From IMG/VR virus record IMGVR_UViG_3300007734_000892, positions 1 to 21,502 of that record: a stretch of DNA of 21,502 nt. One strand, 5' to 3'. The notes under the pieces were generated by a model. That model was given only the letters and a program-made list of their open reading frames with translations, ran no database searches and was not told the DNA's origin. The stretch comes from a virus. The position numbers were made by a program, and so were the translations under genes. This document shows, one piece after another, positions 618 to 18,928 of this stretch (position 1 is its first letter; each line of letters starts with the position of its first letter).

Positions 618-1017
618 GTCATTTACTATATTTGATTGGTTGAAGGAGATTACATATACTAAATCTCCTTCCTCTAAATTCAGTAATGAGGAATGGGAAT
701 CATTTAATCCATATATGATATCTCGTTTTTTGAGTATGTCAAAAGATTATATTGAACTAGTAAATTATGTTCAAAATATTCCATATACTGAAAAGGAAAA
801 GTATTATAAAATATATTGTGAATTAATTCCTAAAAAACAATTCTTTCAAAAATATATTAAATCAACTAAAAAAAGCCCATCAAAAGATATAGTAGAACAA
901 ATTAGTAAATACTATGAATGTTCCCTTGGAGAAGCAGAAGAATATACTTATATTCTAGGAAACAAAGGTATACAAGAAATTTTAAGCAAATTAGGATATG
1001 AGTCAAAACAAAACTAG
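592..1017 (+). CDS. 62: T4-type clamp-loader small subunit (gp62-like)
   Basis: This 141-residue protein matches the layout of gp62 from T4-like marine phages. It has an N-terminal FDWLKEI segment, then FNPYMISRFLSMSKD (the family's P-[YF]-M-I-x-[RN]-x-L-S region), then a basic IPKKQFFQKYIK stretch, and finally ISKYYECSLGEAEEY, which resembles the KEYYGYSxxKAxE helix. With four gp44 ATPase subunits, gp62 loads the gp45 sliding clamp onto primer-template DNA during phage replication. The frame is open to 547, but the ATG at 592 aligns with the family start and gives a 26-base overlap with the upstream gene. Gp44 is not in view, and T4's neighbour regA is not directly downstream. Assignment comes from remembered pattern, without an alignment. 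Confidence 0.75.
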   Translation: MTKKTQQNKSFTIFDWLKEITYTKSPSSKFSNEEWESFNPYMISRFLSMSKDYIELVNYVQNIPYTEKEKYYKIYCELIPKKQFFQKYIKSTKKSPSKDIVEQISKYYECSLGEAEEYTYILGNKGIQEILSKLGYESKQN

Positions 1018-1222
1018 AGAAATAGAAGTAACAGATTCTATTGTAGATACAATTGTAGATAAATTTGTTTCTAGAGCTAAATTTGGTAAAAACAAATACG
1101 GAACTGATTTAGATAGAACTGATTTATCAGTAGTAGACTGGATTACACATTTTGAAGAGGAGCTAATGGATGGAATTTTGTATTGTCAAAAACTTAGACA
1201 AACTTTAATTGGTAAAAAATAA
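998..1222 (+). CDS. Small MazG-like / nucleotide pyrophosphohydrolase-like protein
   Basis: A 74-residue protein with the pattern R-x-K-F-G-K-N-K-Y-G-T-D-L, then a tryptophan, then HFEEELMDGILYCQKL. This resembles short phage proteins of the all-alpha NTP pyrophosphohydrolase (MazG/dATP-dGTP) type, in which an EExxD helix binds the metal. Only one acidic helix is clearly visible and the protein is short, so enzyme activity is uncertain. It overlaps gp62 by 20 bases. Its last residues, QKLRQTLIGKK, have a close second copy after the inserted HNH gene (1906-1944), so this 3' end may have been brought in by the endonuclease insertion. Confidence 0.5.
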   Translation: MSQNKTREIEVTDSIVDTIVDKFVSRAKFGKNKYGTDLDRTDLSVVDWITHFEEELMDGILYCQKLRQTLIGKK

Positions 1223-1230
1223 GATTTTTT

Positions 1231-1240
1231 TAATATTTAT
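1231..1240 (+). promoter_or_regulatory. TAATATTTAT motif before HNH gene
   Basis: The exact 10-mer TAATATTTAT lies in the gap after the MazG-like gene, 23 bases before the HNH start. The same 10-mer precedes the other two homing endonuclease genes and the gene at 15933. Its reverse complement contains ATAAATA, close to the T4 late promoter TATAAATA, so orientation and role are unclear. Confidence 0.25.
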
Positions 1241-1263
1241 GATTGGATCAAACACTCATAAAT

Positions 1264-1905
1264 ATGGATTATCAAAAAATATACAACCAAATAATAGAAA
1301 GAGCTAAAAATCGAATGCTAGAAGGTTATAAAGAAAAACATCATATTATTCCTAAATGTTTAGGGGGGGATAACGATAAAGAAAATATAGTTAAATTAAC
1401 AGCCCGTGAACATTTTTTGTGTCATATGTTGCTCCATGAGATATATCCTCAAAATATTAAATTAACTAAAGCTTTATGGTTAATGTCTATTAACAAAAAT
1501 AAAAAATCATATCAACGATATAAAATTTCATCTAGAACATACGAATTTCTTAAAATAGAGTATTCTAACATAGTTAAAGGAAAAAAAGATAGTTTAGAAA
1601 CTAGACAAAAAAAATCAATAGCTTTAAAAAAAAGAACTATGGACTGGGAAAGCAGAAATTTAAAAGCAAGCGAAAAATTAAAAAATAGAAAAATAACTTG
1701 GAATCTAAAAGGAATCCCTAGAAAACCACATAATAGAAAAACTAATATAGCCATTATGCAGTTTGATTTATACGGAAATTTTATTAAAGAATATTCTAGT
1801 ATAGCTGAGGCTGCTGGTAAAAATAGAGCATTACATGAAAGCATTAGATGCTGCATACATGGGAAATACAATACTGCTAATGGATATATTTGGAAGAAAA
1901 AATAA
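1264..1905 (+). CDS. HNH homing endonuclease with C-terminal NUMOD-type DNA-binding module
   Basis: A 213-residue free-standing homing endonuclease. Near the N-terminus EKHHIIPKCLGGDNDKEN and then LTAREHFLCH give the HNH signature (His27, Asn41 and His50 counting from this start). The middle is lysine-rich. The last 50 residues (IMQFDLYGNFIKEYSSIAEA ... NGYIWKKK) form a NUMOD1-like repeat that also occurs twice in the GIY-YIG protein at 18134. The frame is open to a TTG at 1243; the ATG at 1264 is preferred. The gene interrupts the junction between the MazG-like gene and the PD-(D/E)XK nuclease, and a displaced copy of the upstream gene's tail follows its stop codon. Its likely role is cutting cognate sites in related phages to spread itself. 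Confidence 0.88.
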   Translation: MDYQKIYNQIIERAKNRMLEGYKEKHHIIPKCLGGDNDKENIVKLTAREHFLCHMLLHEIYPQNIKLTKALWLMSINKNKKSYQRYKISSRTYEFLKIEYSNIVKGKKDSLETRQKKSIALKKRTMDWESRNLKASEKLKNRKITWNLKGIPRKPHNRKTNIAIMQFDLYGNFIKEYSSIAEAAGKNRALHESIRCCIHGKYNTANGYIWKKK

Positions 1906-1944
1906 TTTATAGAAAAATTAAAACAAACCCTAAGTGGCAAATAA
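1906..1944 (+). pseudogene. Displaced C-terminal tail of the MazG-like gene
   Basis: Directly after the HNH stop codon, and in the same frame, the bases read F-I-E-K-L-K-Q-T-L-S-G-K-stop. The intact gene at 998 ends in Y-C-Q-K-L-R-Q-T-L-I-G-K-K-stop. Over the ten core codons, 22 of 30 bases match and seven residues are identical. No start codon serves this fragment. It looks like the original 3' end of the MazG-like gene, cut off when the homing endonuclease gene was inserted. The start of the next gene overlaps it in another frame, as would be normal for intact neighbours in this genome. Confidence 0.65.
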
Positions 1945-2881
1945 AATACCACAAATAGTAAAAGAGGTTAAAAAATTTGTTCCTGCTAGCCTTAATCATG
2001 CTTACCAAAAACAAATTTCATTTAGCCAATTTTCTACATTCCAACAATGCCCACACAAATGGGCGTTAATGTATAGGGATGGGCACTATCAATCTGAGGT
2101 ATCCATTCATATGACATTTGGAACTTCAATGCACGAAGCTATACAACATTATTTAGATGTAATGTATAATAAAAGTATGGCTGAAGCAGATAGAATTAAT
2201 CTAGAAGAATATTTTGAAAATAGATTAAGGGAAAATTATAAAAAAGATTATGAGCAAAACAAAAAACAGCATTTTTCTAGTTCGTTAGAATTAAGAGAGT
2301 TTTTTGAAGATGGGAAAGCTATTTTAGAATGGTTTAAAAAGAAGAAAAAAGGATACTTTAGTAAACGTAATTGGTGGTTAGCAGGTATAGAAGTTCCTAT
2401 TTTAATTGCGTTTAATTCTGCTTATAAAAACATACTATATAAGGGGTACATAGACATTGTATTATACAATGAGCTTTCAAATACTATTGAAATAATTGAT
2501 ATCAAAACTAGTACAAAATCATGGGGGAAAGACCAAAAACAAGATAAAGTTAAACACTCACAATTAATCTTATATAAAAAGTTTTTTTCAGAACAATTTA
2601 ATTTCCCAATAGAAAATATTAGAGTTACATTTTTTATAGTTAAACGTAAAATATGGGAACAGTCCGAATTTCCACAATCTAGAATACAAACTTTTTCTCC
2701 CACATCCGGAAAAAACTCAGTAAACCAATGTATGAAAACTCTTAATGAATTTGTAAAAAAAACTTATACATCTTCAGGTACCCATATAAACACCAACCAT
2801 TCTCCTACTCCTAATAAAAATTGCACCTATTGTGTGTTTAATAAAACTCATTTATGTTCTGTTAATATACAAAAAAGTTAA
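1934..2881 (+). CDS. PD-(D/E)XK nuclease, Cas4/AddB/RecB-like with probable iron-sulfur cluster
   Basis: A 315-residue nuclease. SFSQFSTFQQCPHKWALMY is the usual opening of PDDEXK_1/Cas4-type domains. GTSMHEAI holds the conserved His (about 67), KGYIDIV holds the first metal-binding Asp (about 174), and IEIIDIKTSTKSW gives the D-x-K catalytic core (Asp189, Lys191). Cys39 with Cys297, Cys300 and Cys308 (C-x2-C-x7-C) fits the split four-cysteine cluster of Cas4 and AddB. The expected role is single-strand or end-directed DNA cleavage in phage replication or recombination. A stop codon lies just upstream and no other start is near, so GTG 1934 is taken as the start. It overlaps the displaced MazG-like tail, consistent with the arrangement before the HNH insertion. 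Confidence 0.85.
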   Translation: MANKIPQIVKEVKKFVPASLNHAYQKQISFSQFSTFQQCPHKWALMYRDGHYQSEVSIHMTFGTSMHEAIQHYLDVMYNKSMAEADRINLEEYFENRLRENYKKDYEQNKKQHFSSSLELREFFEDGKAILEWFKKKKKGYFSKRNWWLAGIEVPILIAFNSAYKNILYKGYIDIVLYNELSNTIEIIDIKTSTKSWGKDQKQDKVKHSQLILYKKFFSEQFNFPIENIRVTFFIVKRKIWEQSEFPQSRIQTFSPTSGKNSVNQCMKTLNEFVKKTYTSSGTHINTNHSPTPNKNCTYCVFNKTHLCSVNIQKS

Positions 2882-2907
2882 AACTAGTTCAATAGGATGG
2901 AAATTTG

Positions 2908-2917
2908 TAATATTTAT
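2908..2917 (+). promoter_or_regulatory. TAATATTTAT motif before second HNH gene
   Basis: A second exact copy of TAATATTTAT, ending 12 bases before the preferred start of the HNH gene at 2930. It lies between the nuclease stop codon and that start. It may be a promoter element or part of the mobile gene's 5' boundary. Confidence 0.25.
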
Positions 2918-2929
2918 TATAAAAATATT

Positions 2930-3667
2930 ATGAAAAAATGTTACAAATGTCAAATATTTAAAAATAAAGAAGAATTTAGTAAAAACAAAAGGTATAAAGA
3001 TAATTTAAATGATTTATGTAAATTATGTAAAAAAAAACATAATACACTAAGTAAAGATAAAATCAAGGAATATTATTTTAAAAATCAAACTAAGAATAAA
3101 GAATATAATAAACAATATTATCAGAATAATAAAGAACAAATTTTAGAATATTCAAAACAATATTATTCAATACCTGATAACCAAATACAAAAACAAAATT
3201 ATATAAAACAATATGATTCTATTTCTATTAATCAAATAAAAAGAAAAGAATATACCAAAATGTGGAAAGAAAAAAATCCTTTATATCATACTTTATATAT
3301 GAAAGAAAAATATAAAAAAGATATTAATTTTAAAATTAAAAATAATTTAAAAAGTAGATTTTATCATTCCATTAAATCAACTAAATTTACATCTATAATT
3401 AAATTAGTAGGATGTTCTATAGAAGAACTTAAATTATATTTAGAACAACAATTTTTCCCAGAAATGACTTGGGAAAATCATGGGTTAATATGGGAAATAG
3501 ATCATAAAAAACCATGTGCTGCTTTTGATTTAACCCAATTAGAAGAACAACAAAAATGTTTTCATTATACTAATTTGCAACCCCTATTTAAAACAACAGA
3601 AATAGCTAAATCCTTTGGGTATAATGATCAAATAGGAAATAGAAATAAAAATAAAAGAACTTTGTGA
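2930..3667 (+). CDS. HNH-family homing endonuclease with N-terminal zinc finger
   Basis: A 245-residue protein. Residues 4-33 hold a C-x2-C ... C-x2-C zinc finger (KKCYKCQIF ... DLCKLCKKKH). Residues about 45-110 are a low-complexity Tyr/Gln/Lys/Asn region with a repeated K-E-Y-x-K-Q-Y-Y unit. The C-terminal nuclease core has IWEIDHKKPCAAFDL and then QQKCFHYTNLQPLF, the D-H ... P-C ... F-H-Y-x-N-L-Q-P-L pattern of a phage and giant-virus HNH group. The ATG at 2897 is in frame, but the start at 2930 puts the zinc finger at the N-terminus as usual in this group. It sits between the nuclease and the RHH gene, and no tail duplication like that at 1906 was found here. Confidence 0.82.
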   Translation: MKKCYKCQIFKNKEEFSKNKRYKDNLNDLCKLCKKKHNTLSKDKIKEYYFKNQTKNKEYNKQYYQNNKEQILEYSKQYYSIPDNQIQKQNYIKQYDSISINQIKRKEYTKMWKEKNPLYHTLYMKEKYKKDINFKIKNNLKSRFYHSIKSTKFTSIIKLVGCSIEELKLYLEQQFFPEMTWENHGLIWEIDHKKPCAAFDLTQLEEQQKCFHYTNLQPLFKTTEIAKSFGYNDQIGNRNKNKRTL

Positions 3668-3736
3668 TAAAGGTGCATTTTCCTAAAAATGTGATATATT
3701 TATATACAACAAATGTATAATTAAAAAATTAATGTT

Positions 3737-3925
3737 ATGAGTAAAAAAGATATGACACTAACAAGTGTAAAAATTCAAAGTGAAATGTTTGAAGAATTTA
3801 AGGTTTCATGTGTAAGGTATAAATTTTCATTACAAAAACTTGCCGATCGAGCAATTCATTTGTACCTTACCGATGATAGTTTCCGAAAAACTATTCACAA
3901 CCACAACGTTTTAGAAACAAAATAA
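3737..3925 (+). CDS. Small ribbon-helix-helix-like DNA-binding protein
   Basis: A 62-residue protein with a short N-terminal strand (TLTSVKIQ), a helix (SEMFEEFKVSCVRYK), a turn and a second helix (SLQKLADRAIHLYLTDD). This is the order of the Arc/MetJ/CopG fold. Such proteins usually bind DNA as dimers and repress nearby genes. It lies three bases before the first glycosyltransferase gene, so it might regulate the sugar cassette or its own transcript, which is inference from position. A 69-base gap precedes it. That gap contains TATTTATA at 3697-3704 and no clear hairpin. Confidence 0.6.
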   Translation: MSKKDMTLTSVKIQSEMFEEFKVSCVRYKFSLQKLADRAIHLYLTDDSFRKTIHNHNVLETK

Positions 3926-3928
3926 TTT

Positions 3929-5362
3929 ATGAAAGAAGGTTATATTCCAAAAGAACAAAGAAAAAAAATCCTATTAATTACAGACGACATCAGATTACCT
4001 TCAGGTGTAGGTAATGTTGGTAGAGAAATAGTTATTCATACTGCCCACCACTATAATTGGGTTTGTATTGGAGCTGCTATTAAACATCCTGAAGCAGGTA
4101 AAAGATTTGATTTAAGTCAAGATACAAACCAAAATGCAGGTATAACAGATTCTAATGTAATGTTATACCCGTTTGATGGTTATGGTAATCCTGAATTTGT
4201 AAGAGCTTTAATTAAACATGAAAAGCCAGATGCGGTAATGTTAATTACTGACCCTCGTTATTTTATGTGGTTGTTCCAAATTGAAAATGAGATTAGAAAA
4301 GATATTCCGATTTTGTATCTTAATATTTGGGATGATTACCCCGCACCTATGTACAATCAGGCGTTTTATGAATCGTGTGATGCGTTATTAGGTATTTCAA
4401 AGCAAACTGTAAATATTAATAAACTTGTTTTAGGTGATAAAGCCAAAAACAAAATTATAGAATATGTTCCTCATGGATTAAGTCCTGAAATGTTTTATCC
4501 TATCTTAAATAAAGAACAAGATAAAGAATTTCAACAATACAAAAAGAACTTATTTAGAGAGAAAGAATACGATTTTGTAGTTTACTTTAACTCTAGAAAT
4601 ATTCGCCGTAAACAAATCCCGGATGCAATTTTGGCTTTTGATCACTTTTTGAAGCAATTACCTAAAGAAAAAGCTGATAAATGTGCAATGTTACTCCATT
4701 GCGATCCTGTAGATGAAAATGGTACAGATTTAATAGCAGTTATAGAAACTTTATGTTTAAATCCTGCTAATTTTATCTTCAGTACAGGTAGAAAACATGT
4801 TAAGGAAATGAATTTTATGTATAATATGGCGGATGTTCAAATCCTTTTAACATCTAATGAAGGATGGGGATTATCATTAACTGAAGCTATGTTAGCAGGA
4901 GTTCCTATTATAGCTAATACAACGGGGGGTATGCAAGACCAAATGCGTTTTGAATTTGAGGATGGTACTTGGATTAATTTTGATGCTGATTTTCCCTCAA
5001 ACCATAGAGGTACTTACAAAAAACATGGAAAATGGGCTTTCCCAGTTTACCCCTCAAACCATTCAATTCAAGGTTCTCCTGTAACTCCTTATATCTTTGA
5101 TGATAGATGTAAATGGGAAGATGCAGCTGAACAAATTATGAAAGTTTATAATTTAGGAACTGAAGAACGTAAAGCTAGGGGGTTAGCAGGTAGGGAATGG
5201 GCTATGGGAGATGAAGCAGGATTTACCTCAAAACACCAAGCTGAAAGATTTATACAATATGCTGATAAGCTATTTAGTACCTGGAAACCAAGAGAACAAT
5301 TTGAATTAATAGAAGCTAACAAATTTCAAAAACCTAAATTAAATCATAAATTAATATATTAA
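3929..5362 (+). CDS. GT-B fold glycosyltransferase (GT4-like)
   Basis: A 477-residue glycosyltransferase. The N-terminal domain begins KKILLITDDIRLPSGVGNVG, the glycine-rich acceptor-side loop of GT-B enzymes. The C-terminal domain has TSNEGWGLSLTEAMLAGVP (about residues 307-325), the E-x7-E donor-binding motif of GT4 retaining enzymes, followed by IIANTTGG. No signal peptide or membrane segment is seen, so it should act in the cytoplasm with a nucleotide-sugar donor. It opens the sugar cassette, three bases after the RHH gene, and its stop codon shares one base with the next gene's ATG. Donor and acceptor cannot be read from sequence. Confidence 0.85.
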   Translation: MKEGYIPKEQRKKILLITDDIRLPSGVGNVGREIVIHTAHHYNWVCIGAAIKHPEAGKRFDLSQDTNQNAGITDSNVMLYPFDGYGNPEFVRALIKHEKPDAVMLITDPRYFMWLFQIENEIRKDIPILYLNIWDDYPAPMYNQAFYESCDALLGISKQTVNINKLVLGDKAKNKIIEYVPHGLSPEMFYPILNKEQDKEFQQYKKNLFREKEYDFVVYFNSRNIRRKQIPDAILAFDHFLKQLPKEKADKCAMLLHCDPVDENGTDLIAVIETLCLNPANFIFSTGRKHVKEMNFMYNMADVQILLTSNEGWGLSLTEAMLAGVPIIANTTGGMQDQMRFEFEDGTWINFDADFPSNHRGTYKKHGKWAFPVYPSNHSIQGSPVTPYIFDDRCKWEDAAEQIMKVYNLGTEERKARGLAGREWAMGDEAGFTSKHQAERFIQYADKLFSTWKPREQFELIEANKFQKPKLNHKLIY

Positions 5363-6678
5363 TGAAGCCGTTATTTATAATCAGTTGCCCTATAGATACT
5401 TTTTCAGGCTACGGAAGTCGTAGTCGCGACCTAGTAAAAGCTATAATCGAATTAGATAAGTACGATGTAAAAATATTACCCCAAAGGTGGGGAGGAACGC
5501 CTTGGGGTTTTATAGAAAAAAATCCTGAATGGGGATTTTTAACTAAACATATTCTTCAAGATAATCAAATTCCACGCCAACCCGAAATTTGGGCTCAAAT
5601 AACAATCCCAAATGAATTTCAACCAGTAGGAAAATTTAACATAGGAATTACAGCAGGGATTGAAACTACAATTTGTAATCCTACTTGGGTTGACGGGTTA
5701 AATAGAATGGACTTGAATATTGTATCTTCGAAGCATGCTAAAGACGTATTTTTAAATGCTAAATTTGAAGAAAGAAATCAACAAACCAATCAAGTTGTAA
5801 GAACAATTTCACTTAATAAACCCGTAGAAATATTATTTGAGGGTGTAGATTTAAATATTTATAAATTATTAGATACTCTTCCACAGAGCACTTTAATTGA
5901 TTCTTTAAATTCTATTCCTGAATCATTTGCTTATTTGTATTTAGGGCATTGGTTGCAAGGAGATTTAGGTGAAGATAGAAAAAATACTGGATTGTTAATT
6001 AAGGCGTTTTATGAAACCTTTAAAAATAAAAAACAAAAACCAGCCCTAATCCTAAAAACTTCAATATTAGCTGGATCTTCTTATATGGATCGAAACTTGA
6101 TTTTAGATAAGATAGAACAAATTAAACGTACAGTTAATTCTAAAGATCTACCTAATGTTTATTTATTACACGGTGAATTTACAGATGAGGAAATAAATGG
6201 AATTTATAATCATCCTAAAGTAAAAGCTATGGTTAATTTAACCAAAGGTGAAGGATTTGGACGACCATTACTTGAATTTACCCAAACCAAAAAACCAGTA
6301 ATAACAACAAATTGGAGTGGCCATATTGATTTTCTTGACCCACAAATGTCTGTTTTATTAAATGGTAAATTAACCCCAGTTCACCCTAGTGTAGTTAACG
6401 ATTGGATAATTCAAGATAGTCAGTGGTTTTCGGTTGATCTAGGTCAAGTAGGACATTATTTAAAAGATGTGTTTGAAAATTATAAAAAATATACTGATGG
6501 GGCTAAACGTCAAGCCTATAGAAGTAAAACAGAGTTTAGTTGGGATAAAATGAAGGAAAAAGTAGGTCAAATTTTAGAAGGTAGTATACCTGAATTTCCA
6601 CAACAAGTTCAATTAAAACTTCCCCAACTTAAAAAAATAGAGCTTCCAAAACTTAAAAAAATAGAAACAAATGGATAA
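5362..6678 (+). CDS. GT-B fold glycosyltransferase (GT4-like) with repeated basic C-terminal tail
   Basis: A 438-residue protein of the same broad class as its upstream neighbour. The N-terminus has IDTFSGYGSRSRDL, a GT-B glycine loop. The donor site is NLTKGEGFGRPLLEFTQ (about residues 291-307), with the two glutamates of the E-x7-E motif, followed by KPVITTNWSGHIDF. The last 25 residues contain the octapeptide L-P-x-L-K-K-I-E twice, encoded by a 24-base tandem repeat; this tail is not part of the catalytic fold. Its start overlaps the upstream stop by one base and its end overlaps the zinc-ribbon gene by eight bases, so the three are probably co-translated. Confidence 0.82.
   Translation: MKPLFIISCPIDTFSGYGSRSRDLVKAIIELDKYDVKILPQRWGGTPWGFIEKNPEWGFLTKHILQDNQIPRQPEIWAQITIPNEFQPVGKFNIGITAGIETTICNPTWVDGLNRMDLNIVSSKHAKDVFLNAKFEERNQQTNQVVRTISLNKPVEILFEGVDLNIYKLLDTLPQSTLIDSLNSIPESFAYLYLGHWLQGDLGEDRKNTGLLIKAFYETFKNKKQKPALILKTSILAGSSYMDRNLILDKIEQIKRTVNSKDLPNVYLLHGEFTDEEINGIYNHPKVKAMVNLTKGEGFGRPLLEFTQTKKPVITTNWSGHIDFLDPQMSVLLNGKLTPVHPSVVNDWIIQDSQWFSVDLGQVGHYLKDVFENYKKYTDGAKRQAYRSKTEFSWDKMKEKVGQILEGSIPEFPQQVQLKLPQLKKIELPKLKKIETNG
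6619..6666 (+). repeat. 24-base tandem repeat, two units
   Basis: Two adjacent 24-base units (6619-6642 and 6643-6666) agree at 21 of 24 positions. Both contain ACTTAAAAAAATAGA. They encode the doubled LPxLKKIE tail of the glycosyltransferase, just before the overlapping start of the next gene. Slippage or recent duplication is likely. Confidence 0.85.
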
Positions 6679-7117
6679 TTTAACTGTGTGTAATCGTTGT
6701 GATAGTGATGCATGTTACGTTCAAGAAATAAACGACCAAATTAAACTATATCATTGTATGGGGTGTGGATTTCAAGCTAATACTATAATGACTCGAGATT
6801 CAGAATTTCTAAAAGAACAAATGGAAATTTTACCTGAATTATATAAAGAATTAATGGTTGAAGACGAAAATGGAACTATTTGGATGCCCTCAATGGTTAA
6901 TATACCTTCCCAAGGTATGGTATTTGCTGATGGTACTAATAAAAATAATTGGCAGTGGGCAGCTGTAAAAGCAACTCCGATGCCTGAAGAAGAAAAAGCT
7001 AAATTTAAGGCCAAAGGAAAAGATTATGAATGGAAGATGGATATGGAAACGCTAAGACATTATCCTGAACGTGGATATTTAGATGCTCTTTCGTATATTG
7101 GCGTATTACCTGAATAA
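6671..7117 (+). CDS. Zinc-ribbon protein of unknown function
   Basis: A 148-residue protein with an N-terminal zinc ribbon: C7-x2-C10 and C29-x2-C32 (VCNRC and HCMGCG), plus an extra Cys15. The rest is a mixed domain rich in Trp, Met and Lys (NNWQWAAVKATPMPEEEKAKF, then DYEWKMDMETLRHYPERGY) that I do not recognise. It begins inside the upstream glycosyltransferase gene and ends three bases before a GT2 gene. It may therefore belong with the cassette, or be a phage gene into which the cassette grew. Function is not assigned. Confidence 0.65.
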   Translation: MDNLTVCNRCDSDACYVQEINDQIKLYHCMGCGFQANTIMTRDSEFLKEQMEILPELYKELMVEDENGTIWMPSMVNIPSQGMVFADGTNKNNWQWAAVKATPMPEEEKAKFKAKGKDYEWKMDMETLRHYPERGYLDALSYIGVLPE

Positions 7118-7120
7118 ACT

Positions 7121-7747
7121 ATGAAAATAAGTTATGCTATAACAGTAAAAGATGAATTAAACGAATTACAACGTTTAGTTAATTTTCTTATAGATCGGAA
7201 ACGAACCGAAGATGAAATTGTAATTTTATACGATTCAAAAGGGGGGAGTAAAGCTGTAGAAGAATGGTTAAGAGCTAATTCTATAACAAACCCGGAATAT
7301 AGATGGTATAGTAGTAAATTTAATAATCATTTTGCTGATCATAAAAACTATTTAAACATGTTGTGCACTGGTGATTATATTTTTTCCTTGGATGCTGATG
7401 AGATCCCCCATGAATACTTAATCGAAGAACTCCCATCTGCACTAAAGCATAATCCTTCAGTTGATTTGTACGCTGTACCAAGAGTAAACACAGTAGAAGG
7501 TTTAACACCTCAACATATTCAAAAATGGGGGTGGAATGTAAACGAAAAAGGGTGGGTGAATTGGCCCGATTTTCAAACTCGTATTTATAGAAAATCTCCC
7601 GAAATAAAGTGGATAAATAAAGTACACGAAAGAATTGACGGGCATAAACAATTTGCTTATCTTCCTATGGAAGAAGAATGGGCATTATATCATCCCAAAA
7701 CAATTGAAAGACAAGAAAAACAAAACAATTATTACGAGACATTATGA
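7121..7747 (+). CDS. GT2-like glycosyltransferase (GT-A fold)
   Basis: A 208-residue single-domain protein. It starts with the GT-A nucleotide-binding strand (MKISYAITVKDELNEL). It carries YIFSLDADEIPHEYL, where Asp91-Ala-Asp93 is the metal-binding DxD followed by the usual Glu. Later KVHERI and ALYHPK resemble the WaaE/SunS-like GT2 group, whose members transfer sugars to lipid-linked glycans or proteins. It is short for GT2 but the core looks complete. Its TGA stop overlaps the next ATG (ATGA), so it is translationally coupled to another GT2. Confidence 0.8.
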   Translation: MKISYAITVKDELNELQRLVNFLIDRKRTEDEIVILYDSKGGSKAVEEWLRANSITNPEYRWYSSKFNNHFADHKNYLNMLCTGDYIFSLDADEIPHEYLIEELPSALKHNPSVDLYAVPRVNTVEGLTPQHIQKWGWNVNEKGWVNWPDFQTRIYRKSPEIKWINKVHERIDGHKQFAYLPMEEEWALYHPKTIERQEKQNNYYETL

Positions 7748-8586
7748 GTTTATTAACATTTTGTATTTCTACTTGGAATAATTTACCATATCTAAAAATA
7801 GCAATTGATTCGGTTAGAAAAAATAGCTATTATAAAGATGCACCATTCATTGTTCATGCTGAAAATTGTACGGACGGGACTAATAAGTGGTTGGAAGAAA
7901 ACAAAGATAAATACAACTTAACTTTAATCATTGAACCTAATAACGAAATAGTTAAAGGAATTGGTGGTGGAATGAATATATGTGCCGAAAATGTGAAAAC
8001 TGAATACATTATGTTCCTTCACTCAGATTTTTATGTTACTAAAGACTGGGATAAAGCATTGATGGATATATTTGAAAAATATCCAAATAAAAAACTATGG
8101 GTAAATTCTTATAGAATAGAGCCTGATCAATTTAATTCCCCACCAAGACATGGAACAACAATGGTCCCAATAAATCAATTTGGGGGATATCATAATGATT
8201 TTAATTCGGAATTATTTGATAATTGGGTAGAAGAGTTTAAACAATTAAATATGGGTTATGAAGTTCCTAAAGGGGAAGGTGTATCTGGTTTGGTAAAAAA
8301 ATCAGTATGGGATGAAGTTGGTGGAAATGACCCAATATTTGCACCTGCATCTTGGGAAGATATGGATTTATTTTTAAGAATGTTGCAAAATGGTGTTGAG
8401 TTTGTTTTACCAATAACATCAGTAGTTTGGCATTTTGGGGCTAGAGGTTCTCATAGATTGGAAGAAAATGAGGGAACTAGTTCAGAACGCCAAAAGCAAT
8501 CAGAAGAAAAAAATATTAAAAAATGGTTGGAAAAATGGAAAAAATTTCCTATATTTGATGAATATGGAATGATAAAAATTATATAG
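7744..8586 (+). CDS. GT2 glycosyltransferase
   Basis: A 280-residue GT-A enzyme. LTFCISTWNNLPYLKIAIDS is a standard GT2 N-terminus. FLHSDFYV (His93-Ser94-Asp95) takes the place of the DxD. PASWEDMDLFLRML carries the catalytic-base ED pair, followed by VVWHFGARGSH. It shares this layout with the gene at 14878 (FHADMY, HEDSDIFNRF, VYHLTCRG), so the two are paralogues within the cassette. A 36-base AT-rich gap separates it from the dehydratase gene. Confidence 0.83.
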   Translation: MSLLTFCISTWNNLPYLKIAIDSVRKNSYYKDAPFIVHAENCTDGTNKWLEENKDKYNLTLIIEPNNEIVKGIGGGMNICAENVKTEYIMFLHSDFYVTKDWDKALMDIFEKYPNKKLWVNSYRIEPDQFNSPPRHGTTMVPINQFGGYHNDFNSELFDNWVEEFKQLNMGYEVPKGEGVSGLVKKSVWDEVGGNDPIFAPASWEDMDLFLRMLQNGVEFVLPITSVVWHFGARGSHRLEENEGTSSERQKQSEEKNIKKWLEKWKKFPIFDEYGMIKII

Positions 8587-8622
8587 AATATTAATAATTA
8601 ACAATAAATTAAAAAATAAAAT

Positions 8623-9588
8623 ATGAAAAAAAGAGCATTAATTACTGGGATTGGTGGAATGGATGGTTCCCATTTGGCAGAATTTTTATTATCCAAAGAT
8701 TATGAAGTATTTGGGTTAGAACGCAGAAAATCTACACCACATGCCCCAAATTTAAAAAACATTAAGGATAAAATTTATTTATTAAAAGGAGATTTATCAG
8801 ATCAAAATTCTTTAGTACGTGCTGTTAAAGATAGTGAACCCCATGAAGTTTATAATTTAGGAGCCCAATCCTTTGCAGGTGAAAGTTGGGGCACGCCTGA
8901 ACAAACCTCAGATATTACTGGGTTGGGGGCTCTTAGAGTTTTAGAAGCTATAAGAGAGTATGGTAACAAAAACACTAAATTTTATCAAGCATCATCTTCA
9001 GAAATGTTTGGCAAAAAGGGGGGCACTGCTAATGAATTAACTGATTTCCACCCCTGTTCTCCGTATGGTGTGGCAAAATTATATGCTTATTGGATTACAA
9101 AAAATTATAGGGAAAGCCATGGGATTTTTGCGGTTAATGGAATTTTATTTAATCATGAAAGTGAACGACGTGGGGTTGAGTTTGTTACAAGAAAAATTAC
9201 AGATGGTGTTGCTAAAATTCATTTAGGATTAGCAGATTCTATTACATTAGGTAGCTTAGAAGCAAAAAGAGATTGGGGGTATGCCCCGGATTATGTAGAA
9301 GGAATGTGGATGATGCTACAACAAGAACAACCCGAAGATTATGTATTGGCAACAGGGCAAAATTATTCAATTAAAGAGTTTTTAGATGAAGCCTTTAAAT
9401 GTATAGATATCAATAATTGGTCTAAATTTGTGGTTTTTGATAGCAAGTTTTTACGACCAGTTGATCCCATGTATTTATTAGGTGATGCTTCTAAAGCTAG
9501 GGAAAAATTATCTTGGGCCCCCAAAACGTCATTTCAAGAAATGGTTTCAAAAATGGTGAATAATGATATATCACTACTTAAAAACTAG
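8623..9588 (+). CDS. gmd: GDP-mannose 4,6-dehydratase
   Basis: A 321-residue extended short-chain dehydrogenase, close to the family's usual length. It should convert GDP-D-mannose to GDP-4-keto-6-deoxy-D-mannose using bound NADP. Visible signatures are the dinucleotide loop TGIGGMDGSHLAEFL (residues 8-22), NLGAQSFAGESW (78-89), ASSSEMFG with Ser125/126 and Glu127, the catalytic Tyr148-x3-Lys152 in SPYGVAKLYAYW, NHESERRG (177-184), and LEAKRDWGYAPDYVEGMW (212-229), which is diagnostic for the GDP-mannose type. The usual Thr before the catalytic Glu is Ser here. The only nucleotide-sugar-forming enzyme in view, it defines the probable donor sugar of the cassette, together with the adjacent C-methyltransferase. 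Confidence 0.92.
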   Translation: MKKRALITGIGGMDGSHLAEFLLSKDYEVFGLERRKSTPHAPNLKNIKDKIYLLKGDLSDQNSLVRAVKDSEPHEVYNLGAQSFAGESWGTPEQTSDITGLGALRVLEAIREYGNKNTKFYQASSSEMFGKKGGTANELTDFHPCSPYGVAKLYAYWITKNYRESHGIFAVNGILFNHESERRGVEFVTRKITDGVAKIHLGLADSITLGSLEAKRDWGYAPDYVEGMWMMLQQEQPEDYVLATGQNYSIKEFLDEAFKCIDINNWSKFVVFDSKFLRPVDPMYLLGDASKAREKLSWAPKTSFQEMVSKMVNNDISLLKN

Positions 9589-9609
9589 TTAATAAAAAAT
9601 AAACAATTT

Positions 9610-10839
9610 ATGAAAAACAAAAAACAATTATTTAGTTTAGGCGACTTATATGTATCCGATTTTATAAATACCAATTCAGAGGCACGTGCTGGTAAACATG
9701 ATATGACATTAGTTATTGATGAACGGTATGGGGCCGTACGATTAGAAAAATGTACTCCTATACATTCCATGTTTGGGAAATATTGGTATCGTAGTGGAAC
9801 TAATTTAACAATGACTAATGAATTACATTCAATCGTAGAGAGTATAACTGCAGTGCATAAGTTAAATGATGGGGATGTTTGGTTAGATATAGCATGTAAT
9901 GATGGTACATTACTAAAATTTGTTCCTAACCATGTTAAAAAATTAGGAATAGACCCCGCAGAAGATTCATTTGTAAAAGAATCTTCAAAGGTTGCAGATG
10001 AAATTATACAAGACTATTTTACAGCTCAAAGTTATAATAAATCTAAATTTAAAAATCAAAAATCATCTGTGGTTACATGTATTGCTATGTTTTATGATTT
10101 AGATGAACCTATTAAATTTTTAAATGATGTACATTCAATATTAGAAGATGATGGGTTATTTGTATTGCAAATGAGTTATACACCTTTAATGTTAGAGCAA
10201 TTAGCGTTTGATAATATTTGCCATGAACATGTATATTATTGGTCATTATTTTCTATTAAACGTTTATTAGAAGAAGCTAATTTTCAAATTGTAGATTGTC
10301 AATTAAATGACATTAATGGTGGAAGTTTTAGAATTTATGTAAAAAAATCTATTGCTAATTTATCTACATTTGCTTCTAGACCATACCGAGATGTATGTAA
10401 TGTTAGAATTAATTCATTATTAGAATGGGAATCTAATTTAAAACTTGATGAAGCAAATACATGGGTTGAATTTTATAAAAGAATAGAACAATTAAAAGAA
10501 CAAACTGTTAATTTTATTAAAGAAGAAAAATCTAAGGGAAAAGTAATTTGTGGGTATGGGGCATCTACAAAAGGAAACACATTACTACAATATTTTGGAT
10601 TGGATAATTCATTAATTGACGCAATTGCAGAACGCTCCCATTATAAATTTGGCCTAAAAACTATAGGAACAAATATTCCCATCATTTCAGAAGAAGAAAT
10701 GCGTAAACTTAATCCCGACTATATGTTAGTACTACCCTGGCATTTTATTTCAGAATTTATTATACGAGAAGATGAGTATTTATCAAACGGAGGGAAATTT
10801 ATTGTACCATGTCCTAAATTTGAAATAATTGCAAAGTAA
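9610..10839 (+). CDS. SAM-dependent deoxysugar C-methyltransferase-like protein
   Basis: A 409-residue protein with the architecture of NDP-sugar C-methyltransferases of the TylC3/TcaB9 type. It has an N-terminal region, a class I SAM-binding domain (VWLDIACNDGTLL, about 90-102), then FDNICHEHVYYWSLFSI and NDINGGSFRIYV (about 200-244), the hallmark of the C-terminal methyltransferase domain, and a late Rossmann-like part (VICGYGASTKGNT). The family's N-terminal zinc site (C-x2-C ... C-x2-C) is missing; only Cys48 remains. The active-site YHEH tetrad reads CHEH (204-207). It follows the dehydratase by 21 bases, and a 4-keto-6-deoxy sugar is the type of substrate such enzymes methylate. Activity is uncertain because of the altered residues. 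Confidence 0.75.
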   Translation: MKNKKQLFSLGDLYVSDFINTNSEARAGKHDMTLVIDERYGAVRLEKCTPIHSMFGKYWYRSGTNLTMTNELHSIVESITAVHKLNDGDVWLDIACNDGTLLKFVPNHVKKLGIDPAEDSFVKESSKVADEIIQDYFTAQSYNKSKFKNQKSSVVTCIAMFYDLDEPIKFLNDVHSILEDDGLFVLQMSYTPLMLEQLAFDNICHEHVYYWSLFSIKRLLEEANFQIVDCQLNDINGGSFRIYVKKSIANLSTFASRPYRDVCNVRINSLLEWESNLKLDEANTWVEFYKRIEQLKEQTVNFIKEEKSKGKVICGYGASTKGNTLLQYFGLDNSLIDAIAERSHYKFGLKTIGTNIPIISEEEMRKLNPDYMLVLPWHFISEFIIREDEYLSNGGKFIVPCPKFEIIAK

Positions 10840-12366
10840 ATGAAGACGTATTTTATCAATAGTACAAAAGAAAACTGCGGTGTTTATCAGCTAGGATTGA
10901 GGGTTTGGGATATTGTAAAACATACCAAGCTAGACATCGAATATAAGGAGATAGGGTCCAAGGAAGAGTTCTTGGACCTCGATTTCCAATCAGTTGATCT
11001 ACTATTCTTCAATTGGATTGAAGGGGGTGCAACTGGACCTTTCGGATGGTATAATCATGATATGATACAGTACCTAAAATCAGAGTATGATATTAAAACA
11101 GCAACAATCATTCATACATTCGATTTCAACACAGCAACGTTTGACTTCTGCATCGATCAGGATCCTCACGATGATGGATTAACAAGACCTTTATATGAGT
11201 TTAGTAAACCCAAGATCAAAAATGAGATTCCAACTCTTTGCTCTTTTGGTCTAGCCTTCGAACACAAAGGTTTCGATGATGTTGTCCACAAAGTTAACGC
11301 TGAGTTTGATAATGCAGTGCTTAATTTACACATCACTAATGCACATTATGGAGATGCAAGTGGTACATTGAGAGATAGTATTGTTCAGAACTTAAAAGCT
11401 ATACCACTTAAACCGGGAATCACGCTCAATATCACAACCGACTTCAAATCAAATGAAGATCTTTTAGACTTTGTTAATAGCGCAGATATGTTGGTACTTG
11501 GTTACAGACGTGGTACCGATATTAGTAGTGTGCCAGACTATGCCATCTCAACAGAAACACCAATTGCACTTACAGATATTGGCCAGTTTAGACACATATA
11601 CAAATCTGAGATTGACATCAACAAGAACAGTCTTCCAGAAATCCTAGAGTTCTATAAAAACCAAGACTACATATCACAACTAAAGCAGCAATGGTCACGA
11701 GAGGTGCTGTTAAGAACCTTTGAGCAGTTTGTTACCGAGGTGTGTGAGACTTTCACGGAGAAGACATACTCACAAGTGAATCAAGATAGATTTGCTTTGA
11801 AGCTTATTGGTAAGGGTGGTTACTTCTTGGATATTGGAGCGGGATGGGATTATAGCGGTGTGAATAGTAATACACTACTACTAGAGCAGAATGGTTGGTC
11901 TGGTATATGTGTTGAAGGTGATCATGCTTCTGCAGAGCGTCGTAGCTCAAAGAAAGGACCTCGTTGTGTTGTCGAAAACGTTTACATCCCACAAACAACA
12001 ATATTAGAGCTATTACAGCGAAATAACGCACCTAAGGTCATCGATTATGTTAACATCGACATTGAACCTTCATCATTAACCGGATTAGAAAACTTCCCAT
12101 TTGATCAATATGATGCCAAAGTGATTACATTTGAGCATGATTTATATAGATTAGGTCCAGAGCAGAAGGAAACAGCATACAATATCCTAACTAATCATGG
12201 TTATGTGAGATTGTGTGAAAATATAAACGTACCAGAAGCACAAGGTGTTGGTTTATACTTTGAAGATTGGTATATTAATCCAAAATACTTTTCTAACGAC
12301 TTTATCCAAGCCAATCAATTTAAAGATTGTCACGGAAGTCATATCATAGACAATTTAGTATGTTAA
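10840..12366 (+). CDS. Fusion of a GT-B-like glycosyltransferase and an FkbM-type methyltransferase
   Basis: A 508-residue two-domain protein. Residues 1 to about 300 resemble a degenerate GT4-like protein: CGVYQLGLRVWD near the N-terminus and a C-terminal half with SADMLVLGYRRGTDISSVPDYAIST, where a donor site would lie. Residues about 308-500 are FkbM-like: YSQVNQDRFALKLIG, the SAM loop GYFLDIGAG (327-335), NSNTLLLEQNGWSGICVEG, and YVNIDIEPSSLTGLENF, typical of O-methyltransferases acting on sugars. It would glycosylate and/or cap a glycan by methylation. Its ATG immediately follows the upstream stop. Codon use differs sharply from neighbours (TTC, ATC, CTA, GAC frequent), which suggests recent transfer. 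Confidence 0.78.
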   Translation: MKTYFINSTKENCGVYQLGLRVWDIVKHTKLDIEYKEIGSKEEFLDLDFQSVDLLFFNWIEGGATGPFGWYNHDMIQYLKSEYDIKTATIIHTFDFNTATFDFCIDQDPHDDGLTRPLYEFSKPKIKNEIPTLCSFGLAFEHKGFDDVVHKVNAEFDNAVLNLHITNAHYGDASGTLRDSIVQNLKAIPLKPGITLNITTDFKSNEDLLDFVNSADMLVLGYRRGTDISSVPDYAISTETPIALTDIGQFRHIYKSEIDINKNSLPEILEFYKNQDYISQLKQQWSREVLLRTFEQFVTEVCETFTEKTYSQVNQDRFALKLIGKGGYFLDIGAGWDYSGVNSNTLLLEQNGWSGICVEGDHASAERRSSKKGPRCVVENVYIPQTTILELLQRNNAPKVIDYVNIDIEPSSLTGLENFPFDQYDAKVITFEHDLYRLGPEQKETAYNILTNHGYVRLCENINVPEAQGVGLYFEDWYINPKYFSNDFIQANQFKDCHGSHIIDNLVC

Positions 12367-12713
12367 AAATAAGCTTAGACGAATCCTATGTGTTTGACTT
12401 ACTTTCAATATTTGAAGTAAAGCTATCCGCAGCTGAGTCTCTTACAAAGCAGGAACAGTTGCAAAGATCCTACAACACTCTTAGAGAAGAGATTGTAGAT
12501 CAAGTTGGGATTGATCTGTTTAACCAAATAATAAGTAGCGATCAGTACAACATGCTACGAAAGGCTAATCAATTGGTTTTTGATCTAGTTGATCGAGCTC
12601 ATGAGTCAGCCTTATCTAAGGAAACAGCCGATGCAAACTATGAAAGGTATCTTAGAAAAGTTGAAATTCAAACAAAGTTTTTTACAACACAAATTACCGA
12701 GGTAAAACTATGA
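12360..12713 (+). CDS. Uncharacterised helical protein in the transferred block
   Basis: A 117-residue protein, predicted mostly helical by eye, with no motif I recognise (YVFDLLSIFEVKLSAAESL, then AHESALSKETADANYERY). The ATG at 12360 gives a 7-base overlap with the fusion gene; the frame is open further up to 12327, but that would only lengthen the overlap. It shares the raised GC and mixed codon use of the gene before it, and its stop overlaps the next ATG (ATGA). It probably travelled with the glycosyltransferase-FkbM gene. It could be a partner or regulator of that protein, but nothing in the sequence proves this. Confidence 0.65.
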   Translation: MLKISLDESYVFDLLSIFEVKLSAAESLTKQEQLQRSYNTLREEIVDQVGIDLFNQIISSDQYNMLRKANQLVFDLVDRAHESALSKETADANYERYLRKVEIQTKFFTTQITEVKL

Positions 12714-13417
12714 AGTACTTAGCAGGTGGAAAAATGGGTGATTTTATCCATAGTTTAATTATATGTAAATACAAATATGATAAAACCGGAGAATTATCGA
12801 ATATATTTTTATCTAATAATGGAGATACATTTGAATATGATTTAGAATTTACATATAATGAATTAAAACCATTAATGTTATCACAGCCCTGGGTTGGTTC
12901 ATTTAATATATACAATAATGAATTTATAGATGTTAATTTAACTGATTGGCGCCAATCCCCAAAATTATATCAAACTAATTGGTTAGAAATATATTCTAAT
13001 ACATATTTAAACAATGTCAAAATGCCTAACGAGTATAAATGGATTAATGTGGTTCCTGATCCTGAATATTCAAATTCGTTAATGATTAATCGTTCATTAA
13101 AACCTATAGATAATAGTAAATTGCATGTATATAATAATTTAATAGATAAATATGAAAATACATATTTTATATGTTTTGATATACGACAATATTATGAATT
13201 TCCATTACATTATAAAACAAAATTATTGTTAATAGATAATTTATTAGATTTTTTTATTAAAATAGCTAGTTGTCACTTTTTTATAGGGAACCAGTCTGGA
13301 CCATTTGCGTGGGCTTCTTCATTAAACATCCCTAGAGCAGTTGAATTATTAGACACCCCTGATAAGAACCATTATATTAATGATGTAAATTACTATAAAT
13401 ACTTTAGTTATTTTTAA
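12710..13417 (+). CDS. GT9/heptosyltransferase-like glycosyltransferase
   Basis: A 235-residue protein. LAGGKMGDFIHSLIIC at the N-terminus fits the G-G-x-G-D-x-I-h-S-L loop of ADP-heptose transferases and other GT9-like GT-B proteins. Near residue 190 FFIGNQSGPFAWASSLNIP corresponds to their F-x-G-N-D-S-G-x-x-H-x-A-A donor loop, but with Gln for Asp and Phe-Ala-Trp where His-x-Ala is usual. At 235 residues it is shorter than bacterial GT9 enzymes (about 350). Codon use returns to the extremely AT-rich style here, so the foreign block ends at the ATGA overlap with the previous gene. Fold assignment is fair; substrate unknown. Confidence 0.68.
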   Translation: MKYLAGGKMGDFIHSLIICKYKYDKTGELSNIFLSNNGDTFEYDLEFTYNELKPLMLSQPWVGSFNIYNNEFIDVNLTDWRQSPKLYQTNWLEIYSNTYLNNVKMPNEYKWINVVPDPEYSNSLMINRSLKPIDNSKLHVYNNLIDKYENTYFICFDIRQYYEFPLHYKTKLLLIDNLLDFFIKIASCHFFIGNQSGPFAWASSLNIPRAVELLDTPDKNHYINDVNYYKYFSYF

Positions 13418-13418
13418 A

Positions 13419-13443
13419 TATAAATATTAGGTCAATCCTAATA
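13419..13443 (+). promoter_or_regulatory. TATAAATA box plus short hairpin
   Basis: In the 53-base gap before the gene at 13471, TATAAATA (13419-13426) is an exact match to the T4 late promoter consensus, on the coding strand. It runs into a 7-bp dyad, TATTAGG (13425-13431) and CCTAATA (13437-13443), with a 5-base loop. An internal late promoter for the last part of the cassette is plausible. In such AT-rich DNA, chance remains possible. Confidence 0.35.
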
Positions 13444-13470
13444 ATAAGTTAAACCTACAAAAAAACAATA

Positions 13471-14178
13471 ATGAAAATCATATATAGAATATCAGATTCA
13501 GGTTATAATAAAATAAAACCCGAATATATAAACAATGAAAATTGTTTGAAAAATGCTTTACTAACATTTCCGCCCTATGAATACGATTGGTCTATAATCG
13601 CAGATAATATATCCGAAAAAACAAACGATATGATTCAAAAATATATTTCTAGGGATCATATTTTGTATGTTGAAATAGGTGATGGGGCAGGAACCTTTAA
13701 TATAGCATTAGATGAAGCTCTACAGAGTCCAGATGATAAGATAATTTACTTTTTAGAAAACGATTATCTACACAAACCTAATTCTGATCAAATTTTAAAA
13801 GAAGGTTTTAAATTAGGAGCTTCTTTCGTATCGTTATATGACCATCCTGATAAATACAAAAGTCCGGAACAGGGTGGTAATCCCTATTGTGAGGGTGGTG
13901 CTGAAGATACAAGAGTATATCTAACAGATTCTTGCCATTGGAAAATAACAAACTCAACAACTATGGCATTTGCTGCAAAGGTATCTACTTTAAAACGCAC
14001 TGAGTCTATTTTAAGGAAACACACAGCAGGAACTCACCCTAATGATTTTACAATGTTTCTAGAATTGAGAGAACAAAATGAATTATTAATAACTTCTATT
14101 CCTGGCTATTCAACCCACGGAGAAACAGCTTGGCTTTCACCTTTAACAAACTGGGAATATGTTAATAGCAACACTTAA
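13471..14178 (+). CDS. GT-A-like glycosyltransferase-family protein
   Basis: A 235-residue protein with GT-A-like features. A strand leads into IIYFLENDYLHKPNSD, in which Glu96-Asn97-Asp98 stands where the DxD metal motif lies, and a C-terminal segment reads PGYSTHGETAWLSPLTNWE. The N-terminus (MKIIYRISDSGYNKIKPEYI) is not the classic GT2 strand-loop, so this may belong to a distinct family. It follows the only sizeable gap inside the cassette, which holds a TATAAATA box. Its end overlaps the next glycosyltransferase by 20 bases. Sugar and acceptor are unknown. Confidence 0.62.
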   Translation: MKIIYRISDSGYNKIKPEYINNENCLKNALLTFPPYEYDWSIIADNISEKTNDMIQKYISRDHILYVEIGDGAGTFNIALDEALQSPDDKIIYFLENDYLHKPNSDQILKEGFKLGASFVSLYDHPDKYKSPEQGGNPYCEGGAEDTRVYLTDSCHWKITNSTTMAFAAKVSTLKRTESILRKHTAGTHPNDFTMFLELREQNELLITSIPGYSTHGETAWLSPLTNWEYVNSNT

Positions 14179-17975: not shown

Positions 17976-18125
17976 ATGGCAGCAAAAGTAAAATCAGCAG
18001 CATCTAGTCTCACTTACAAAGAAAAGAAAAAAGTTAGACGCAAAGGAGTACACGCAAAAACAAAAACAAGTAAAAATAAAAATTCAAAACTTTATTCAAA
18101 GCCCAGTGTAGGTCAAAATTCTTAG
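17976..18125 (+). CDS. Small, highly basic phage protein
   Basis: A 49-residue ORF (ATG 17976 to TAG 18125) with a strongly basic sequence: SLTYKEKKKVRRKGVHAK, then a K-T-S-K-N-K-N-S-K-L-Y segment and a final SVGQ. Short proteins with an R-R-K-G-V-H-[AS]-K motif followed by Lys/Thr/Ser repeats are familiar from T4-like marine phages, where function is unknown; nucleic-acid binding is a guess from charge. An A-rich leader precedes the start. The GIY-YIG gene is inserted directly after it. Confidence 0.65.
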   Translation: MAAKVKSAASSLTYKEKKKVRRKGVHAKTKTSKNKNSKLYSKPSVGQNS

Positions 18126-18135
18126 TAATATTTAT
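18126..18135 (+). promoter_or_regulatory. TAATATTTAT motif before GIY-YIG gene
   Basis: A fourth exact copy of TAATATTTAT starts right after the stop codon of the basic protein and runs into the first possible ATG of the GIY-YIG gene. If this is a promoter or leader element, the second ATG (18143) would be the more likely start. Confidence 0.25.
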
Positions 18136-18928
18136 GGGGAACATGAATGAAACACTTATTTATTATTTACACTATGGAGATAATATTCCTTTTTATATTG
18201 GGAAAACAGTTAATGAACGTCGAAGAAGGCATGAACATTTTTTTCAAGATAAAAAAATAAAATTAGAAATAATAGATAAAATCCCCTCTAGTGAATGGGT
18301 CTTTTGGGAAAGGTGGTATATATCATTATTCAAAAGTTGGGGATTTTATTTAAAAAATAAAAATAAGGGAGGAAATGGGTGCTCACAGCAAAATGATCTT
18401 TCAAAAAAACAAATATCTAAAAACATGAAAGGTAAAAATAATTGGAGTGTTGGTGGGTATAATAAAAACTCGGTATTGCAATATAATTTAGAAGGTGAAT
18501 TTATAAAAAAGTATGAATCTACCGAGGAAGTTAAAAAAACACTTAATTTACGTGTAGGTCCTTGTTGTCGAAATCAAACCAAAACATGTGGTGGGTTCAT
18601 TTGGGTTTATGAAAAAAATTTCAAAAATATAAATTTATCAAATAAAATACATAATGTAAAGGTTCACGGTAATCTTAATAAGAAAAAAAGTAAAGAACAT
18701 GCTACTAAATTAACAAAACGTTTACTAAGTTACATTAGTGATCCTATTTTTTATAAGAAAAAAAGAAAAATAATATTACAATATGATATAAACGGTAATC
18801 TTATACAAGAATGGGAAAGTATTAAAAAAGCAAGTTTAGAATTAAACATATGTAGCAGTTCAATTAATAATAATCTTAAAAAAAGATATAAACATGCCGG
18901 AAATTATATATGGGAATACAAAAAATAA
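18134..18928 (+). CDS. GIY-YIG homing endonuclease with two NUMOD1-like repeats
   Basis: A 264-residue free-standing homing endonuclease. The N-terminal catalytic domain has IYYLHYGDNIPFYIGKT (GIY-YIG core), the basic RRRRHEHF, WVFWERWYISLFKSWG with Glu59 as the likely metal ligand, and NKGGNG. Two C-terminal DNA-binding repeats follow: ILQYDINGNLIQEWESIKKA ... GNYIWEYKK and an earlier VLQYNLEGEFIKKYES ... GGFIWVYEK. The same module ends the HNH protein at 1264, showing module exchange between nuclease types. A second ATG at 18143 is a possible start. The gene splits a row of small basic-protein genes and probably moves by cutting related phages lacking it. Confidence 0.87.
   Translation: MGNMNETLIYYLHYGDNIPFYIGKTVNERRRRHEHFFQDKKIKLEIIDKIPSSEWVFWERWYISLFKSWGFYLKNKNKGGNGCSQQNDLSKKQISKNMKGKNNWSVGGYNKNSVLQYNLEGEFIKKYESTEEVKKTLNLRVGPCCRNQTKTCGGFIWVYEKNFKNINLSNKIHNVKVHGNLNKKKSKEHATKLTKRLLSYISDPIFYKKKRKIILQYDINGNLIQEWESIKKASLELNICSSSINNNLKKRYKHAGNYIWEYKK

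Follow-up and report, generated by a model that had tools for sequence, protein, structure and literature searches.

We have identified in phage DNA what is, with a probability of roughly 0.87, a tail-replacing homing cassette. In it, a homing endonuclease gene (HEG) is preceded by a diverged, still coding copy of the 3' end of its target gene and followed by the original end of that gene, now displaced. Tail substitutes with relics occur with at least three unrelated nuclease types and in at least four genes. On balance we lean toward the broader view that these are a recurrent class of phage homing cassettes with a recoded 3' end of the cut gene, evolved with several unrelated nuclease families within one lineage, and that they form a counterpart in nature to engineered homing-rescue gene drives, which lets HEGs target essential coding sequence.

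Background

Descriptions of phage HEGs usually place them in introns, inteins or the gaps between genes, where they are harmless. If the reading proposed here is true, substitute gene ends would let HEGs target conserved coding sequence without self-splicing, the resistant allele would spread along with the cassette, and chimeric genes would be created. The cassettes would also show a route by which replication-gene clusters gain mosaic 3' ends. The near-isogenic empty and filled sites in this lineage make cleavage specificity and homing directly testable.

Methods

The stretch analyzed, referred to as the window, is the whole 21,502 nucleotides of IMG/VR record IMGVR_UViG_3300007734_000892 (positions 1-21,502). 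HEG1 is the HNH gene with which the analysis is mainly concerned, and HEG2 and HEG3 are labeled as in Table 1. IMG/VR was searched with both proteins flanking HEG1, yielding 45 and 26 loci on contigs partly common to both sets. The window was compared with the HEG-free phage L005, which is near-identical to it (mostly 98-100% identity, the exceptions being the HEG1 and HEG2 cassettes). Phages L002 and L003 carry HEG2 and lack HEG1.

Table 1. Coordinates of cassette features in the window
Feature	Position	Strand	Evidence
Small conserved gene, intact chimera (native body with foreign 3' end)	998..1222	+	ORF; PHROG families of unknown function; body 98-100% identical to HEG-free L005
Replacement 3' tail FEEELMDGILYCQKLRQTLIGKK-stop, diverged from native tail	1151..1222	+	48/69 identical to L005 tail; dS ~1.2 versus 0.03 in body
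HEG1 leader, RNA hairpin extending into ATG region	1223..1275	+	-11.3 kcal/mol, z -3.5; similar hairpins before HEG1 relatives in L075, L077
HEG1, free-standing HNH homing endonuclease, MobE-like	1264..1905	+	phrog_655 homing endonuclease, E 4e-44; T4-type mobE hits; dN/dS 0.19 versus L010 copy
Relic of native 3' end of the 998 gene (EKLKQTLSGK-stop), holding the GTG start of the next gene	1910..1944	+	35/35 identical to native end in L035 and L009
PD-(D/E)XK (Dna2/Exo5-like) nuclease gene (exonuclease), chimeric	1934..2881	+	PF12705, E 2e-21
Replacement 3' part of nuclease gene, arrived with HEG2	2484..2881	+	L005-to-L002 marker switch between 2467 and 2484
HEG2, HNH/endonuclease VII-like homing endonuclease; final codons and TGA within relic	2930..3667	+	phrog_1035, E 5e-11; 96% identical to L111
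Relic of native exonuclease 3' end (KELCDKGAFS-stop)	3653..3686	+	100/100 versus L005 over 3653-3752; L002 differs
Small gene, last codons altered at HEG3 insertion (GQNS-stop for GQGH-stop)	17976..18125	+	Empty sites in L123, L124
HEG3, GIY-YIG/NUMOD-type, beside stop codon of the 17976 gene	18134..18928	+	NUMOD1, E 6e-11; absent from L123, L124

Results

HEG1 lies between two copies of a gene end

The small gene at 998 terminates in YCQKLRQTLIGKK-stop. The HNH ORF has its stop at 1903-1905, and the DNA from there reads FIEKLKQTLSGK-stop, including the GTG (1934) of the next ORF. The original prediction had described a ten-codon tail repeat either side of the HNH gene with 22 of 30 bases matching, and this was borne out: on neither strand of the window does any other stretch match the 30-mer as well without gaps (runner-up 20/30), and at the protein level the repeat scores 36 against 23 for the runner-up. 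Whether such a repeat could occur by chance is irrelevant, because the second copy matches native gene ends in HEG-free relatives (33/35 in L005, and every position in the phages listed in Table 1).

In about 20 HEG-free IMG/VR loci the small gene ends in ...YLEKLKQTLSGK-stop (...ILYLEKLKQTLSGK-stop), and its final 11 nt are shared with the PD-(D/E)XK gene, which starts with GTG. Among the loci compared, the 711-nt interruption with the HNH gene is confined to the window, the contigs behind L010/L047 and the contigs behind L011/L048. BLAST comparison of the window with the empty sites gives a match to 1219 that restarts at 1910, and the 35-nt overlap of these matches on the target is the duplicated tail. 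The arrangement recurs in three contigs (the window, L010 and L011) from different metagenomes, which argues against an assembly artefact. These empty sites are the relatives that the original prediction had called for, with tails in ...LEKLKQTLSGK directly overlapping the nuclease start (gap -11). Relatives ending in QKLRQTLIGKK with no overlap, or with the second tail inside a longer unrelated ORF, were not encountered. The interpretation given in that prediction is supported: the HNH gene entered the 3' end of the small gene with a diverged replacement tail, the original tail remains behind the HNH gene as a relic, and the relic overlaps the GTG of the next gene as in an undisturbed operon. 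The name MazG-like, which the small gene had been given, finds no hit in Pfam or NCBIfam. An AlphaFold model of its protein has a pTM of 0.43, and a PDB fold search with it returned no significant match.

The upstream tail copy (1151-1222) is about 70% identical to the native end. Compared with L005, codons 1-50 of the gene have a dS of 0.03, whereas the last 23 codons have a dS of ~1.2 with a dN/dS of 0.24. This contrast indicates that the upstream tail was acquired through recombination and did not drift in place. The ORF of the chimeric gene is intact and, judged by this dN/dS, the substitute tail still behaves as coding sequence. Among 80 distant relatives of the gene, no donor was found in which the substitute tail is the native end.

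HEG1 matches phrog_655 across residues 1-181, with similarity over the full N-terminal HNH domain; its matches to HNH and NUMOD models are weak, and that to the HNH homing PHROG is strong. With homologues beginning MDYQKIYN, the most likely start of the ORF is 1264. In the leader, hairpins similar to that of the window precede relatives of HEG1 in L075 (229-299, z -5.2) and L077 (2440-2510, z -2.4), and in all three the start codon lies in or beside the stem. Translational control is known for T4 HEGs, and by analogy the HEG1 hairpin perhaps serves the same function. At L073 3130-3181, the HEG1 copy of L010 has CAA for the window's stop TAA; it reads in frame through the relic, ending in ...QFVEKLKQTLSGK-stop, and the overlap with the nuclease gene is restored.

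A self-splicing intron or split gene, with the HEG inside the intron and the downstream tail as the real last exon, would fit a HEG located within a gene whose downstream end is conserved, and the downstream copy is indeed the more native one. Yet the window has no Rfam match, whether at the gathering threshold or with E relaxed to 1 (group I catalytic core included), the upstream copy supplies an entire tail in frame, stop codon included, and HEG1 of L010 as well as a GIY-YIG HEG of L025 (see below) read in frame into their relics, which thereby form HEG C-termini. Taken together, these findings make splicing very unlikely.

A HEG-free phage offers a further view of the HEG1 site. Of 2676 positions compared, L016 and L013 differ at 35, and 10 of these fall within the 23 nt adjoining the site; 26 nt (L016 3436-3461) are identical to HEG1-bearing alleles, after which the native end resumes. 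This patch could be a short repair tract that yielded a resistant allele without the HEG, and it is also compatible with ordinary recombination.

HEG2 marks a homing tract in the adjacent nuclease gene

HEG2 replaced the last ~140 codons of the exonuclease and left a 34-nt relic. From 2521 to 2880 the window is 97-100% identical to L002/L003 and 47-80% identical to HEG2-free phages; in the bin holding the left breakpoint its identity to L002/L003 is 92-93%, and over 2521-3652 it is closest to these two phages. At sites that differ between L005 and L002, the window agrees with L005 at 25/26 up to 2467, with L002 at 10/11 informative sites from 2484 (and with L005 at 0), and again with L005 at every site over the next 100 from 3653. 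The displaced native nuclease end, AAAAGAACTTTGTGATAAAGGTGCATTTTCCTAA, begins at 3653. From there on, the first difference between L002 and L005 falls at 3672, which puts the right crossover no later than 3672. Since the window equals L005 from 3653, the relic represents the old gene end of the recipient itself, as cut-and-repair homing predicts. By its marker pattern, the HEG2 replacement is a homing tract. The first codons of the exonuclease relic, read in another frame, give HEG2 its stop. The dN/dS of HEG2 is 0.32, and both this value and that of HEG1 (0.19) are consistent with purifying selection.

Similar tails on either side of a HEG could also stem from a tandem duplication in place, one copy of which then diverged. 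Against this, the flanks match L005 at 98-100%, in contrast to a dS >1 in the upstream tails, and the HEG2 substitute tail is shared at 97-100% with L002/L003. We give this explanation next to no weight, and the near-identical flanks exclude in-place duplication and drift for this lineage.

The right junction AATAAAAATAAAAG is common to two HEG2-family insertions at unrelated genes (window 3640-3667 and L025 3270-3296), and its AAAAG is present in the target genes too. This suggests that microhomology was involved in the first insertion of HEG2-family genes.

Substitute tails and relics recur at other genes

In L025, a HEG2-family gene sits in the 3' end of the gene for the clamp-loader small subunit, where the native EQKKLLKNG-stop has become EQKKLLVNIYNKIS-stop. 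Part of the new tail is the HEG leader read through, and downstream of the HEG 23 nt of the native end remain as the relic AAAAGTTATTAAAAAATGGATAG. The L025 gene for the clamp-loader large subunit carries a GIY-YIG HEG; here CALIASILKIIT-stop stands in place of the native MALLASILKIINNK-stop, with 25/39 bases identical against 92% in the flank, and the HEG reading frame runs on into the relic KIINNK-stop. The nuclease gene of L045, also with a GIY-YIG HEG, has the tail CKYCVFRQLKSLCQEGI instead of CKYCPYKDKKDLCDKAFS and the relic KDLCNK. Each of these three insertions, like that of L019 below, can be set against an empty site. HEG3 alters only the last two codons and the stop of its neighbor. 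All GIY-YIG assignments are made from the visible motif (in HEG3 DNIPFYIGKT, by eye) and NUMOD hits, with no Pfam GIY-YIG match.

The end of the 3737-type gene (62 codons) holds a GIY-YIG/NUMOD HEG, full in L019 and decayed in L010. The evidence from this gene is weaker, because the relic is short and lies mostly past the stop. At L010 4630-4860, the internally deleted HEG retains a substitute tail and relic and is a decayed cassette. In the unrelated phage L101, RLGIGINVRL-stop and RFIIGLSVRL-stop stand either side of a MobE-like HEG (23/33 bases; score 28 versus 14 for the next match), and the target gene has no relatives in phage or viral collections. An insertion after a glycosyltransferase gene in L077/L079 shows a 17-nt overlap that is AT-rich and weak. 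L113 was dropped as an exonuclease case; its match to the exonuclease tail is unsafe because the KGSKL in which its HEG ends is shared with the HEG of L115.

Screens and cargo genes set the scope

A test for tail copies within single genomes, which is insensitive and misses diverged cases (HEG2 and those of L025 among them) that are visible only against empty sites, gave one or two positives (L101 and, weaker, L086) among ~40 loci of both HEG families, and none among 65 HEG2-family loci except one tandem-HEG case. T4-type nrdA/mobE junctions in RB5 and DK-13 have no tail substitute and no relic. Given the few positives, tail substitution is not claimed as a general rule; it is one insertion mode, common in this lineage, and not a property of an enzyme family.

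Non-HEG cargo genes occupy junctions of the same operon (L065 3722-4450 and 1563-3254, L003 1315-2017, L019 1998-3017). The inserts of L003 and L019 at about window position 350 were considered as a HEG case and rejected, as they are cargo genes.

Passive modular insertion, in which any gene enters junctions by illegitimate or homeologous recombination and the survivors are those that keep their neighbors intact, would leave the HEG without a driving role. It is the main rival, given that gene ends in this lineage take up cargo genes as well: a non-HEG gene lies between the 998-type gene and the nuclease gene in L065, and cargo genes follow the 103-348 gene in L003, L019 and L065, with weak tail similarity in L003 and L019. 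We nevertheless hold it to be improbable, since the target tail in L065 is intact and not substituted, at least three unrelated HEG types come with substitute tails and relics, the end of the HEG2 tract falls exactly within its relic as cut-and-repair predicts, and L016 bears its short patch of the HEG1-bearing allele right beside the cassette site. Because non-HEG genes are inserted at gene ends too, HEGs may not be the sole route there in this lineage.

Discussion

For a tail-replacing homing cassette we propose the following course. When a HEG-bearing and a HEG-free phage infect the same cell, the enzyme would cleave the HEG-free genome at the target gene's uninterrupted 3' end. Repair from the HEG-bearing genome would find its homology in the gene body on the left and in the relic and next gene on the right, and would paste the substitute tail together with the HEG into the recipient. 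The reading frame of the target gene would stay intact with a tail that no longer holds the recognition sequence. The recipient's old tail would turn into the new relic, so that the downstream gene would keep its overlapping start. We infer that native tails are cut and substitute tails are not, and the chimeric genes are presumably functional. The substitute tails conserve protein better than DNA, as the dN/dS of the HEG1 tail illustrates. First invasion probably involved homeologous recombination on the left and joining at a short shared sequence (e.g. AAAAG) on the right.

A comparable organization is found in the mobile ORF (mORF) hybrids of fungal mitochondria, in atp6 of Allomyces and in atp6, atp9, cox2 and nad3 of Rhizophagus/Glomus (PMC3630166). 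As here, an endonuclease ORF and a foreign C-terminal coding segment lie near the 3' end, with the native C-terminal end downstream and nearer to HEG-free relatives than the inserted one (PMC3630166). The mORF hybrids carry LAGLIDADG or GIY-YIG enzymes in mitochondria, whereas the cassettes described here carry HNH and GIY-YIG enzymes in dsDNA phages. Unlike the mORF hybrids, they also lie among tightly overlapping operon genes, in a near-isogenic recipient background and with mapped homing breakpoints. A related N-terminal version has been proposed for Tremella introns (PMC7315562).

The yeast WHO elements in FBA1 likewise have the target's 3' end upstream of the nuclease gene, where it confers resistance, and a displaced 3' fragment downstream, which provides the right homology and is renewed from the recipient's old 3' end (PMC7282813). 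The FBA1 fragments measure ~400 bp (PMC7282813), as against 23-35 nt for the relics here. WHO proteins are intein-derived LAGLIDADG-zinc-finger enzymes with demonstrated allele-specific cleavage (PMC7282813); the enzymes here are unrelated to them. The LAGLIDADG/zinc-finger make-up of the WHO family is absent from HEG1, assigned to an HNH homing PHROG, and from HEG2, assigned to an endonuclease VII PHROG. Shared with WHO and mORF elements are a complete target with a foreign 3' end, a native end downstream, and HEG-free alleles.

Among phage elements, the T4 Mob and Seg HEGs (PMC2988022) are free-standing and have a leader hairpin, as does the MobE-like HEG1; T4-type free-standing HEGs are described there as intergenic. 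Unlike the cassettes here, the T4-type mobE/nrdA site lacks a tail substitute and relic. In Aeromonas phage Aeh1, a MobE-type HEG lies inside the coding sequence of nrdA, as here, but that gene is split into nrdA-A and nrdA-B, whereas the gene here is re-completed. The logic of tail replacement is thus known from fungal mitochondria and yeast, and a phage example was not found among the open-access papers covered, PMC2988022, PMC10448857 and PMC12724721 included. In Aeromonas phage AS-gz (L129 2501-3817), a MobE-like HEG follows the gene for the topoisomerase large subunit and precedes two small ORFs annotated as topoisomerase fragments, which may represent either a split gene or a displaced end.

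Other content of the window

The window starts with replication genes and, unusually, continues with a long run of glycosyltransferase-like and sugar-modification genes (3929-15921, by eye). The ORF at 17141-17782 has weak matches to HNH endonuclease PHROGs (E 3e-6) and is possibly a fourth nuclease gene.
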